A stretch of DNA of 64,000 bases from Pseudoxanthomonas sp. YR558 (GTDB taxonomy: Bacteria; Pseudomonadota; Gammaproteobacteria; Xanthomonadales; Xanthomonadaceae): positions 2,081,501-2,145,500 of the forward strand of contig NZ_FPCI01000001.1 in the NCBI RefSeq assembly GCF_900116385.1, written 5' to 3'. Below, in pieces: positions 7,359 through 10,794 of this stretch. The notes beneath the pieces were generated by a model. The model was not told the DNA's origin and did not search any database. It saw only the letters and a program-made list of their open reading frames with translations. The translations under genes were made by a program, and so were the position numbers. Positions within the stretch are counted from its first letter, which is position 1. Each line of letters starts with the position of its first letter.

Positions 7359-8192
7359 ATGACCTATTGCGTCGGTATCGAAGTCAACGACGGCCTGGTC
7401 TTCGCCGCGGACACCCGCACCAGCGCTTCGTTCGACGACGTGCGCGTGTACCGCAAGATGCACGTGTTCGAATGGCCGGGCGACCGCGTGTTCGTCATCA
7501 TGTCGGCCGGCAATCTGGCGACCACGCAGCTGACCATCTCGCGGCTGCAGCGCGACGCTGATGACCCCAACGCCAAGCACAGCCTGAAGACGTTCTCGCA
7601 TCTCTACGAAGTGGCGGAGTATGTCGGCGACACGCTCGTCGCCAGCCAGGTCAAGATGAACGACGAGGCCCAGCAGAGCGGCGTCAACGTGCAGTCCACG
7701 CTGATCCTCGGCGGCCAGATCGCCGGCGAGCGCCCGGGTCTGTACATGATCTATCCGCTCGGCAACTGCATTGCGACTTCGCCAGAGACGCCGTACCTGC
7801 AGATCGGCGAATCGAAGTACGGCAAGCCGATCCTCGACCGCATCATCCGCCCCGAAACGCCGCTGGAAGACGCGGCGCGCTGCGCGCTGGTGTCGCTGGA
7901 CTCCACCATCCGCTCCAACCTGTCCGTCGGCATGCCGGTGGACATGGCGCTGCTGCGCAGCGGCGATCTGAAGATCACCCAGAAGATGCGACTGGAAGCC
8001 GACACGCCGCTGTACGCCGAGATCCACGACACGTGGTCGCGCAAACTGGAGGCGGCGGTGCACAGCCTGCCCCGTTTCCCGTGGGAGCCGCAGGGCGAGC
8101 GCGAGCCCGCTCCCGCCAGCATGCCTGCCATGCCGCCACGCCGCGCACCGTCTCGACAGGATCCGGGCGACGCGCAGGGGCAGCAGCAGTAG
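7359..8192 (+). CDS. Anbu-family proteasome-like peptidase (COG3484)
   Basis: A 277-residue N-terminal-nucleophile hydrolase related to 20S proteasome beta subunits and HslV. After removal of Met1 the mature protein would start with the nucleophilic Thr1 (MTYCVGI). Asp17 (AADTRT) and a Lys near position 32 (VYRKM) sit where the proteasomal catalytic residues belong. The segments VMSAGNLATTQ and STLILGGQI are typical of Anbu. A Pro/Ala/Gln-rich tail of about 40 residues extends the C-terminus. The gene is convergent with an alpha-E protein and a circularly permuted ATP-grasp ligase, the classic Anbu neighbours. The predicted role is proteolysis of peptides or tags made by that ligase; the substrate is unknown. 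Confidence 0.9.
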   Translation: MTYCVGIEVNDGLVFAADTRTSASFDDVRVYRKMHVFEWPGDRVFVIMSAGNLATTQLTISRLQRDADDPNAKHSLKTFSHLYEVAEYVGDTLVASQVKMNDEAQQSGVNVQSTLILGGQIAGERPGLYMIYPLGNCIATSPETPYLQIGESKYGKPILDRIIRPETPLEDAARCALVSLDSTIRSNLSVGMPVDMALLRSGDLKITQKMRLEADTPLYAEIHDTWSRKLEAAVHSLPRFPWEPQGEREPAPASMPAMPPRRAPSRQDPGDAQGQQQ

Positions 8193-8198
8193 CGAGCG

Positions 8199-8390
8199 AT
8201 GGCCGCGAGCGACCTGAAGCCCTGGGTCGTCGCGGTGATCGTGTTCTGCGCGGGCCTCGGCCTTACCGTCTTCAGCCTCGCCTGGTGGATACCGCCGCCC
8301 TGGCGTGTCGTGGCGGGTATCGCGGGGGTGCTCATCGCGAGCAAGCTCGCCGCCATCTCCGCTGCCGCGTGGCGTACCCGCCACGACTGA
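8199..8390 (+). CDS. Small two-helix membrane protein of unknown function
   Basis: A 63-residue frame beginning six bases after the Anbu stop codon on the same strand. It has two hydrophobic segments (about 9-29 and 34-54) joined by WWIPPPWR and ends in a basic tail. The ATG is preceded by only a weak GCGAGCG. Its position, immediately after Anbu and six bases before the convergent alpha-E stop, and its clean membrane profile argue for a real gene. I recognise no family. It occupies the place where related loci often carry a transglutaminase gene. Confidence 0.55.
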   Translation: MAASDLKPWVVAVIVFCAGLGLTVFSLAWWIPPPWRVVAGIAGVLIASKLAAISAAAWRTRHD

Positions 8391-8395
8391 CGGCT

Positions 8396-9337
8396 TCAGC
8401 CGTGGAAGTACCCTTCCGCGATGGCGTCATGCAACGCGCCCAGATGCACCTGGATCTGATCCATGAACTGCGCGGGATTGCGCGTGGCGAGGACAGCAGG
8501 ATCGGCGTTGCGGGTCAGGCCGATGACGCGGTTGAGGTGACGATCCACGCTGGGACGCGGCGGCATCGTCGGCAACACGCTCTGCACGCGCGACAGGCAG
8601 AAGTGCACGCTGCGCGGGAACTCGTTGTTCTGCAGCAAGAACCGCAGCGCCAGTTCGGCGGTGACGCGCTGGCGCACGTGCCGACGGAACATCTGGTAGC
8701 CGGCGAGCGAGCGCAGCACGCTCATCCATTGCATGTTCTGGAACGCCTCGCGGTCGTCCTCGTTGCGCGGCGTCACCAGACCGGATGCGCCGGCATCCAT
8801 GATGCGCGTGGTCATGTCGGCCTGCTCCAGGCCCGTGCCCAGGCGCAGGAACTGGTACCCGATGTCGCGGCTGACGTTGGCGCTCAACAATCCCGACACC
8901 TTGAGGCAGCCGTCGACGATGCGCTGCAGGAATTCCAACCGGTACCGCCGGCTGAGACTGCGTTCGCCCTGCGCAGCGATGTAGAGATGCAGGTCGTTGA
9001 TCGCCTCCCACACATCCTGCGGCAGCGTATCGCGGATGCTGCGCAGGATCTCGCGGGCCGAATCCACCGAGGTACGCAGTGAGGACGGATTGCGTTCGTC
9101 CAGCAGGAGGAAACGGATCACGTCCGCATCACCCGCGGCCTCCGCCGTTGCCGGATAGCACTGCTCGAAGCATTCGCCTGCGCCGACCGTGTCGATCATC
9201 GGCCGCCACGCGAAGCGCACGGAACGCGGCATGTCGAGCTGGAGCTGGCTGCCTACGCCCACCAGGCGCGCGGTGTTCTCGGCCCGCCGCACGTAGCGGC
9301 TGAACCAGTACAGGTTGTCGGCGACGCGCGACAGCAT
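8396..9337 (-). CDS. Alpha-E domain protein (DUF403)
   Basis: A 313-residue mostly alpha-helical protein. The N-terminal signature MLSRVADNLYWFSRYVRRAEN (RAEN core) is diagnostic of the alpha-E family. These proteins are consistently paired with circularly permuted ATP-grasp ligases, with conserved acidic and arginine residues on one helix face; no biochemical activity is established. Its ATG overlaps the TGA of the upstream ATP-grasp gene by one base (TGATG), so the two are translationally coupled and probably made in fixed ratio. A long frame continues upstream in the same register but is only a shadow of the ligase gene. Confidence 0.9.
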   Translation of the reverse strand: MLSRVADNLYWFSRYVRRAENTARLVGVGSQLQLDMPRSVRFAWRPMIDTVGAGECFEQCYPATAEAAGDADVIRFLLLDERNPSSLRTSVDSAREILRSIRDTLPQDVWEAINDLHLYIAAQGERSLSRRYRLEFLQRIVDGCLKVSGLLSANVSRDIGYQFLRLGTGLEQADMTTRIMDAGASGLVTPRNEDDREAFQNMQWMSVLRSLAGYQMFRRHVRQRVTAELALRFLLQNNEFPRSVHFCLSRVQSVLPTMPPRPSVDRHLNRVIGLTRNADPAVLATRNPAQFMDQIQVHLGALHDAIAEGYFHG

Positions 9338-10794
9338 CAGCCTTCCTCCCCGTCGTCGTCGGACAGGTCCACCACCCACGTGTCCTTGGCGCCGCCGCCC
9401 TGCGACGAGTTCACCACCAGCGAGCCCTTGACCATCGCCACGCGCGTCAGGCCGCCGGTAGTCACGTAGGTATCTTGGCGCGACAGCACGAACGGACGCA
9501 GGTCGATATGGCGCGGCGACGGCCCCTGCTTGGTGACGATCGGCGCAGTGGACAGCGCCAGCGTCGGCTGCGCCATGTAGTTGCGCGGATTCGCTTCGAT
9601 CAGCGCCTTGAACTTCTCGCGCTGGCGCTTGGTGGAACGCGGACCGATCAGCATGCCGTAGCCGCCGGACTCGTTGGCCGGTTTCACCACCAGCTTCTCG
9701 ATGTTCTCCAGCACGTACTTGCGCTCCTTCGCGTTGTGGCAGAGGTAGCTGGGTACGTTCGGCAGAATGGGTTCCTCGTCCAGGTAGTACTTGATCATCT
9801 TCGGCACGTAGGCGAAGACCACCTTGTCGTCGGCCACGCCCGCGCCCGGCGCATTCGCCAGCGCCACCTTGCCCGCGCGCCAGCTGCGGATCAGTCCGGG
9901 CACGCCGAGCACGGAGTCGGGGTGGAATACTTCGGGATCGATGAAAAGGTCGTCCACGCGCCGGTACACCACGTCCACCCGCTTGGGGCCGTACACGGTG
10001 CGCATGTAGGTGCAGTCGTCGTCGGCGACGAACAGGTCGCTGCCTTCGACCAGCTCGATGCCCATCGCCTGGGCCAGGTACGCGTGTTCGAAGTAGGCAC
10101 TGTTGAACACACCCGGCGTCAGCAGCGCGATCACCGGCGTATCGCCCGGGCGCGGCGACAGCGCGGCGAGCGTGTCGTACAGCTGGCTGGGGTATTCGTC
10201 CACCGGCAGGATCGAACTGGTCTCGAACAACTCCGGGAACACGCGTTTGGCCACCATGCGGTTCTCCAGCATGTAGCTCACGCCGGACGGGATGCGCAGG
10301 TTGTCTTCCAGCGCGTACAGCGTGCCATCGCCGTCGCGCACCAGGTCCGAGCCGCAGATGTGCGCCCACACGCCGAGCGGCGGCGCGATGCCGACGCACT
10401 GCTCGCGGAAGTTCACCGAATCCTTCAGCAGCATCGCCGGGAACACCTTGTCCTTGACGATCTGCTGCTTGCCGTAGATGTCGCCGATGAACAGGTTCAG
10501 CGCGCGCATGCGCTGCTTCAGGCCGGCTTCGGTACGTTGCCACTCGCTCAGCGGGATGATGCGCGGGATCAGGTCGAACGGCAGCGTGCGGTCGACGTTA
10601 CGGCCGTCGGAGTACACGGTGAAGGTGATGCCCTGCACGCGCGCGACCACGTCGGCGGCGAGTTGGCGTTCGGCGATTTCGCGGCCGGAGAGACCGGCCA
10701 GGTATTCGACCAGGCGGCGCGCGGCCGGTCGCGGCCGTCCATCGGCCTGGATCAGTTCGTCAAAGGTCGTGGTGCGGTATTTCGCCCAGTCCAT
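9337..10794 (-). CDS. Circularly permuted ATP-grasp type 2 ligase
   Basis: A 485-residue protein of the DUF404/DUF407 (CP_ATPgrasp_2) family. Visible signatures are LLTPGVFNSAYFEH, LVEGSDLFV, and the nucleotide-binding stretch VVKPANESGGYGMLIG near residue 370. ATP-grasp enzymes form amide bonds through acyl phosphates; comparative work predicts that this clade makes a peptide or peptide-like tag. I chose the ATG at 10794 (MDWAKYRTTTFDEL) because GGAAAGGG precedes it. The gene is coupled to the alpha-E gene downstream and convergent with Anbu. The acidic tail (DLSDDDGEEG) is a minor oddity. Confidence 0.9.
   Translation of the reverse strand: MDWAKYRTTTFDELIQADGRPRPAARRLVEYLAGLSGREIAERQLAADVVARVQGITFTVYSDGRNVDRTLPFDLIPRIIPLSEWQRTEAGLKQRMRALNLFIGDIYGKQQIVKDKVFPAMLLKDSVNFREQCVGIAPPLGVWAHICGSDLVRDGDGTLYALEDNLRIPSGVSYMLENRMVAKRVFPELFETSSILPVDEYPSQLYDTLAALSPRPGDTPVIALLTPGVFNSAYFEHAYLAQAMGIELVEGSDLFVADDDCTYMRTVYGPKRVDVVYRRVDDLFIDPEVFHPDSVLGVPGLIRSWRAGKVALANAPGAGVADDKVVFAYVPKMIKYYLDEEPILPNVPSYLCHNAKERKYVLENIEKLVVKPANESGGYGMLIGPRSTKRQREKFKALIEANPRNYMAQPTLALSTAPIVTKQGPSPRHIDLRPFVLSRQDTYVTTGGLTRVAMVKGSLVVNSSQGGGAKDTWVVDLSDDDGEEG

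Follow-up and report, generated by a model that had tools for sequence, protein, structure and literature searches.

The proteasome relative Anbu is encoded in Pseudomonas and Yersinia in a four-gene operon on one strand, in which a gene for a transglutaminase-like (TG) enzyme lies between the Anbu gene and those of an ATP-grasp ligase (AG) and an alpha-E protein. Several crystal structures of Anbu have been solved, yet the available portions of the papers describing it give no physiological substrate or partner for Anbu and report no product for the AG/alpha-E pair. According to these sources, Pseudomonas Anbu binds proteasome inhibitors but did not cleave any substrate offered to it (PMC5666114), and an AG relative from Yersinia liberates phosphate from ATP (PMC6376114). 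Here we describe a locus of the same families, as judged by profile or sequence search, in a 64,000-nucleotide stretch of the genome of Pseudoxanthomonas sp. YR558 (the window). In contrast to the Pseudomonas/Yersinia arrangement, Anbu here faces AG and alpha-E convergently instead of following them, the TG genes are unlinked, and Anbu bears a C-terminal tail, the end motif of which accompanies AG in the relatives examined.

An ATP-grasp ligase is likewise paired with a peptidase in RimK/RimB and RloABC; these differ in that a RimK-related ATP-grasp enzyme is combined with an aspartic peptidase and not with an Ntn-hydrolase. The Pup-proteasome system also brings together a proteasome relative and an amide ligase with a disordered polypeptide that has Gln or Glu at its end. 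Its ligase PafA, however, resembles glutamine synthetase, and the polypeptide, Pup, is a protein in its own right; the comparison is an analogy only, and no search for Pup genes was made here. RimK adds glutamate to the C-terminus of a protein (PMC12239564, in the part available). In Halomonas and Nitrincola, loci are found that contain AG and alpha-E, a large TG (DUF2126), an AG-alpha-E fusion and a small TG. Their AG is 68-70% identical to that of the window and has its own alpha-E adjacent; no Anbu was found within the flanks fetched, and the alpha-E proteins there carry Gln tails.

The C-terminal tail of Anbu

In the window, Anbu is a proteasome-type Ntn-hydrolase of 277 amino acids (7359-8192, plus strand; ATG 7359, stop 8192). 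The initiator Met is followed by Thr1 (codon 7362-7364, plus strand), the presumed nucleophile once Met has been removed, as assigned in the available portions of PMC5666114 and PMC6376114. Asp17 and Lys32 are present as well and the match to PF00227 lies above the cut-off (34.5 versus 22.4 bits), in agreement with a family of proteasome-beta fold with Thr1, Asp17 and Lys32/33. The best sequence match in the PDB is the designed Anbu protein 5loy (6e-77). With residues T20-Y30-S48-L52-T55, the S1 pocket is of the Anbu-1 type, given as T20-F30-T48-L52-S55 in the part of PMC5666114 at hand, and not of the basic Anbu-2 type.

Behind the core, residues 244-277 (8088-8189, plus strand) form a tail for which a single-chain AlphaFold2 model predicts mostly disorder: the block mean of the confidence measure pLDDT is 72 for residues 241-250 and then 49, 48 and 41 for residues 251-277, with most of the core at high confidence, although low pLDDT can also come from few aligned relatives. 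The tail closes with the conserved motif PPRRAPSRQDPGDAQGQQQ-stop (8133-8189, plus strand), and its consensus among Anbus of the window's type is PPRR..R.DP(G/E)D..(G/A/S)QQ(Q). An earlier account of the window, made from the DNA letters and referred to below as the preliminary description, does not mention this tail, which goes with AG.

Searches of 395 genomes of the family for Anbu and AG (E 1e-20) and for TG (E 1e-12) found Anbu in 139 and AG in 113; both were present in 106, Anbu only in 33, AG only in 7 and neither in 249, figures in which a few absences may be misses, the best 6 (protein searches) or 4 (AG profile) first-look candidates having been scored per genome. The preliminary description had named a lack of co-occurrence among relatives as an outcome that would speak against it; what the family shows is co-occurrence, with the Anbu-only genomes beside it.

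The Anbu gene was read in all 33 Anbu-only genomes and in 62 of the 64 genomes that have AG and an Anbu of the window's type, two with a fragmented Anbu being excluded (G030, G292); in one of the 62 (G300), the gene breaks off where the contig stops. The 61 complete Anbus from AG-bearing genomes all end in QQ or QQQ and contain PPR, and 60/61 contain DP(G/E)D, whereas a QQ end and DP(G/E)D in the tail are each found in 0/33 genomes without AG. When the tails are aligned from their ends, with QQQ read as QQ, D-9, D-6, Q-2 and Q-1 are invariant, R-16 and R-15 occur in 60/61 and 59/61, and the linker that follows the core varies. Anbu is 274-279 amino acids long in the 15 AG-linked Lysobacteraceae first compared and 246-249 in five of the Anbu-only genomes; in the three from genus g11, 18-26 residues extend past the core and the motif is absent. 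Remnants of the tail were not found in the 150 bases behind the stop of any of the 33 genes. Across all 95 genomes the tail is present where AG is present and absent where AG is absent (G300 being scored as tail-bearing), which requires 4 changes on the Anbu-core tree. The tail follows AG and not TG, since it is kept in 13/13 fetched AG-bearing genomes without a TG resembling that of the window strain (L003-like; see below).

Anbu in genomes without the ligase

The orphan Anbus, as we call those without AG, come from 33 of the 139 Anbu-bearing genomes, 26 of them in g29, 3 in g44, 3 in g11 and 1 in g42. The named matches to a g29 Anbu are from Stenotrophomonas, and we refer to g29 as a Stenotrophomonas-like genus. 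All 33 are of the window's Anbu type, at 62-74% identity. Absence of AG was seen at E 1e-3 in 5 of the 33 genomes, and absence of alpha-E was seen in these same 5 only. In the five orphans checked, Thr1, Asp17 and Lys32 are intact. The ratio of nonsynonymous to synonymous substitution rates (dN/dS) was 0.075-0.145 in four within-genus comparisons among five orphans, and 0.079 between the window and its congener G117. Between two orphan genera it was 0.372, and in three AG-bearing pairs between genera 0.245-0.379. Judging from the sequences, the orphans are under purifying selection and Anbu appears to have a selected function in the absence of AG; because the 33 orphans exist, it does not need AG.

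Several of the g29 orphan genes (L148, L151, L156, L157 and others) end directly against the palindrome GCCGGCCGCTGGCCGGC, which resembles repetitive extragenic palindromic (REP) elements of that genus. In locus L074, an Anbu (8891-9628) was seen with Ser, not Thr, at position 1.

Transglutaminases encoded elsewhere

As the preliminary description had stated, no TG gene lies between or beside Anbu and alpha-E/AG. For the genome as a whole its wording 'without the transglutaminase' has to be given up, as two unlinked TGs with both domains of the operon TG were found. The genome contains 6 matches to PF01841, none with the size of a DUF2126 protein. A Pfam scan, which covered L003-L006 and left L002 and L007 outside, detected Bact_transglu_N (PF08379) and Transglut_core (PF01841), both above cut-off, in L003 and L004; L005 and L006 have no Bact_transglu_N above cut-off. 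The same two domains are those of the TG in a four-gene Anbu operon of the family (L136). L003 and L004 are 85% identical; the distance to AG is about 264 kb for L003 and about 221 kb for L004. In a tree of the TG domain (35 rows; L133 excluded, cluster TGs reduced to roughly every third locus), both fall together with 8 unlinked TGs from other Lysobacteraceae, 'TG2' (support 99/97), apart from the TGs of operons and clusters.

An L003-like TG, defined as a match to L003 above 100 bits, is present in 66 genomes of the family, all of which have AG: 66/113 with AG against 0/282 without or, among Anbu-bearing genomes, 63/106 against 0/33, counts that are not phylogenetically independent and whose direction repeats inside two genera (21/32 against 0/4 in g1; 9/11 against 0/3 in g11). 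Matches below 100 bits, which stand outside this count, occur in 13 genomes, 12 of them with AG (most beside the AG gene) and one without (G311). As L003-like TGs occur in AG-bearing genomes only, their distribution follows that of AG and not that of Anbu. Such a TG is not obligatory, since 11/32 AG-bearing genomes of the window's genus have none; in two of these 11, G117 and G016, PF01841 has 2 and 4 matches of other kinds.

The operon-type TGs (L124, L136, L137) have Gln-rich ITQ..Q..Q tail ends, unlike L003/L004 and TG2. The second copy of TG has a gene for a small heat-shock protein (HSP20; L010, 6442-6918) at a distance of about 0.5 kb. A relative of N-formylglutamate amidohydrolase (FGase) is situated at most 4 kb from TG2 in 6/9 loci fetched (L126, L127, L128, L129, L131, L134) and directly adjoins it in four of them (L126, L127, L129, L131), Pfam having been run on the L129 copy (7624-8421) only. 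FGase was rejected as a component: relatives occur in 157/395 genomes, many of them AG-free, and none was found at E 1e-25 in the window genome.

Gln-rich tails in other families

The ends of AG and alpha-E were compared in 77 pairs from 80 named loci, three of which have no complete pair. At least two QxQ in the last 35 residues were present on AG only in 15 pairs, on alpha-E only in 20, on both in 0 and on neither in 42, against a background of 15/930 genes. Such tails are found on AG in 12/14 pairs from Nevskiaceae and on alpha-E in 11/11 pairs from Halomonadaceae and 2/4 from Oceanospirillaceae. After redundancy removal, at least one QxQ was counted in 20/53 alpha-E proteins (p 4e-9), 8/27 Anbus (p 7.5e-4) and 4/14 AG-alpha-E fusions (p 0.017), the background being 48/663; in the same set, small and large TGs gave 0/22 and 0/17. 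Microsatellite slippage was considered as the source of the Gln tails and discarded, the mixed codons in 9 tails examined speaking against recent slippage.

Interpretation

Gene content, layout, co-occurrence, the conservation of the tail and its absence coinciding with that of AG are the observations from which our explanation starts. On balance, though by no wide measure, we think it probable that AG and alpha-E form a module to which a separable Anbu is coupled through its tail in this clade, with TG acting in trans. In this two-gene amide-ligase module, AG would activate a carboxylate with ATP and make an amide bond, with alpha-E as a close partner; the TG-like cysteine enzyme, encoded elsewhere and here in two copies, would join the module in many species and process or exchange its product. 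The Anbu peptidase facing the module would be connected to it by the disordered tail, which may either dock the Anbu particle on AG/alpha-E or itself be the substrate of AG. Once AG is gone, the tail motif would be lost and the catalytic core kept, in that presumed order. Of the two, docking is the more cautious proposal; the bolder is ligation at the tail's C-terminus, by analogy with RimK acting on RpsF (PMC12239564, available part). More far-reaching, and in our view unlikely, is the idea that the tag is encoded in the system's own subunits. A Gln-rich disordered C-terminal peptide would then be the substrate, extended or conjugated by AG/alpha-E in a RimK-like manner and thereby switching or targeting the Anbu particle; carried by Anbu in Lysobacteraceae, by AG in Nevskiaceae and by alpha-E in Halomonadaceae and others, it would move between subunits and vanish from Anbu when the ligase is lost.

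Several points weigh against a coupling through the tail, besides the possible missed absences and the second source of low pLDDT mentioned above. Strongly supported branches of the Anbu-core tree underlie just 2 of the 4 contrasts, and with so few independent contrasts a sign test has no power and cannot reach significance. The DP(G/E)D..QQ motif was seen only in Lysobacteraceae and one metagenome-assembled genome labelled Lysobacterales (L022), while two Lysobacterales relatives (L023, L024) have a QQQ end and no DP(G/E)D; the Anbus of Nevskiaceae end differently, often in Gln-rich sequence, and nothing comparable to the tail is present in type-B Anbus or in most of the remaining AG-linked Anbus that were read. 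The link between tail and ligase is therefore not universal. Five solved Anbu sequences, of 240-251 amino acids, are too short for the tail, though the constructs may be trimmed. As to the Gln tails, L085 is positive on both AG and alpha-E at the one-QxQ threshold, and QxQ on AG is not significant after redundancy removal (1/16, p 0.7), which merges 94 AG rows into 16. In the available portion of PMC6376114, pull-downs gave no specific interaction among the operon proteins of Yersinia bercovieri, and Anbu cleaved no substrate tried; Fuchs et al., as far as their text was accessible, argued from structure for protein degradation over peptide synthesis.

Three other explanations were weighed. 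In one of the type proposed by Iyer, AG and alpha-E attach a peptide to targets and Anbu removes it, the tail being incidental. The strong co-occurrence of Anbu and AG across the family's genomes accords with it, as does the operon model quoted in the available portions of PMC6376114 and PMC5666114. It fits poorly with the existence of 33 orphan Anbus, five of which were checked and have intact catalytic residues, and it leaves unexplained a conserved tail that is absent without AG; we regard it as unlikely. The tail is equally unexplained if Anbu degrades protein under nitrogen stress and AG, alpha-E and TG handle nitrogen-rich amides, regulation being all that these genes have in common. Such turnover would match the finding that in Burkholderia cenocepacia NtrC and sigma54 activate two TG genes together with those of AG and alpha-E (PMC5491218), the increase of Anbu in nitrogen-limited P. 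putida (quoted in PMC5666114) and, in marine metagenome networks, the association of these domains with domains of urea metabolism (PMC3597751), each as given in the accessible part of the source. At the present genes no clear sigma54-like site was found, however, AG and both TGs reaching 4/12 and the best site of Anbu 9/12, a score also reached by 102/2000 random 250-bp stretches, and we judge this explanation to be quite improbable.

The tail could also be a quirk of the lineage, its absence in AG-free lineages being due to chance on few branches. That there are only 4 events, 2 of the contrasts on strongly supported branches, and a motif confined to one family or order would suit this possibility; no tail loss in 61 AG-bearing genomes, an invariant motif beside a fast-changing linker and the fact that other families again have Gln tails, there on AG or alpha-E, make it very unlikely in our estimate. 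Under the coupling that we favour, a motif whose presence matches that of the ligase would point to a concrete contact and make a long-standing guess testable. It would also offer a reason why that contact could be missed in a pull-down in which the Anbu of another species had a tag joined to its C-terminus (PMC6376114, available portion), and the orphan Anbus, mostly from the Stenotrophomonas-like genus, would provide a natural ligase-free control. Were the tail the substrate of the ligase, a proteasome relative would be regulated by modification of its own C-terminus. The separability of Anbu, a TG in trans and a ligase-tracking tail were not found in the literature searched, which did not cover Iyer et al. 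2009, and we claim no priority. The 'undescribed working system' of the preliminary description was too strong a phrase: the families and the four-gene operon are described (PMC6376114, PMC5666114, in the parts available), and the TG-less convergent layout is normal in the genus.

Genes and arrangement of the locus

AG (485 amino acids; 9337-10794, minus strand) is a circularly permuted ATP-grasp ligase of the DUF404-DUF407 type with matches to PF14403 and PF04174. It covers positions 1-374 of 374 of PF14403 (CP_ATPgrasp_2; E 1.1e-159, 531.9 versus 32 bits), and its closest structure in the PDB is 3n6x, a 'putative glutathionylspermidine synthase' (5.4e-160). The alpha-E protein (313 amino acids; 8396-9337, minus strand) belongs to the DUF403 family and matches PF04168 over its full length (E 5.9e-84, 282.7 bits versus a cut-off of 20.8), and its AlphaFold2 model has a mean pLDDT of 94.2. 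Comparison of alpha-E with PDB structures gave no significant match; NasR, ranked top by VIA-align, lay within helical-bundle noise and was not used as a fold relative. Profile searches above cut-off thus agree with the families to which the preliminary description had assigned Anbu, AG and alpha-E, and its translational coupling is seen in the TGATG overlap, in which the AG stop and the alpha-E start share one base, with Anbu convergent on the pair. The genome (3.79 Mb, four contigs, listed as 100% complete) has one match to AG and one to alpha-E. AG and alpha-E behave like a single unit: alpha-E follows within 300 bp after 90/96 separate AG genes, and 28 open reading frames (ORFs) fuse both.

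The TG-less convergent layout is ordinary for the genus, where Anbu and AG converge within 6 kb in 30/32 genomes with both genes, the window included; as it is common among relatives, it is not a recent deletion in the window strain. Anbu also converges with AG/alpha-E in eleven loci of Nevskiaceae. Other Lysobacterales loci (L017, L018, L021, L022; L114 looks like the L018 record) have a co-directional TsaD-FolB-AG-alpha-E-Anbu-FolK order, and in G058 (genus g7, taken for Xanthomonas), G001 and G043, Anbu is close to FolK and AG/alpha-E is close to FolB/TsaD, the two groups being widely separated or not on the same contig. From the strands and from this dispersal in relatives, separate control of Anbu and AG/alpha-E is plausible. 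In L121 and L122, a type-B Anbu comes after AG and alpha-E, all three on the same strand, and the space between is too small for a TG; coordinates suggest likewise for several other survey genomes. A folate link, prompted by the position of AG and Anbu among tsaD, folB, folK and folM in Lysobacterales, was rejected as local synteny: of the 65 other loci in L012-L091, 1 gave a match at E 1e-10 to one of these genes or to MTase28 (FolK, L043).

The gap between Anbu and alpha-E is filled by a membrane-like ORF of 63 amino acids (8199-8390, plus strand), which we do not judge to be part of the system. Relatives of it occur in 4 of the 26 further genomes of the genus in which the convergent gap was measured; it is not conserved in the genus and was dropped as a component. 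The tight spacing noted in the preliminary description is real, with 5 bases, and not the 6 given there, between the stop of this ORF (8388-8390) and the alpha-E stop codon (8396-8398).

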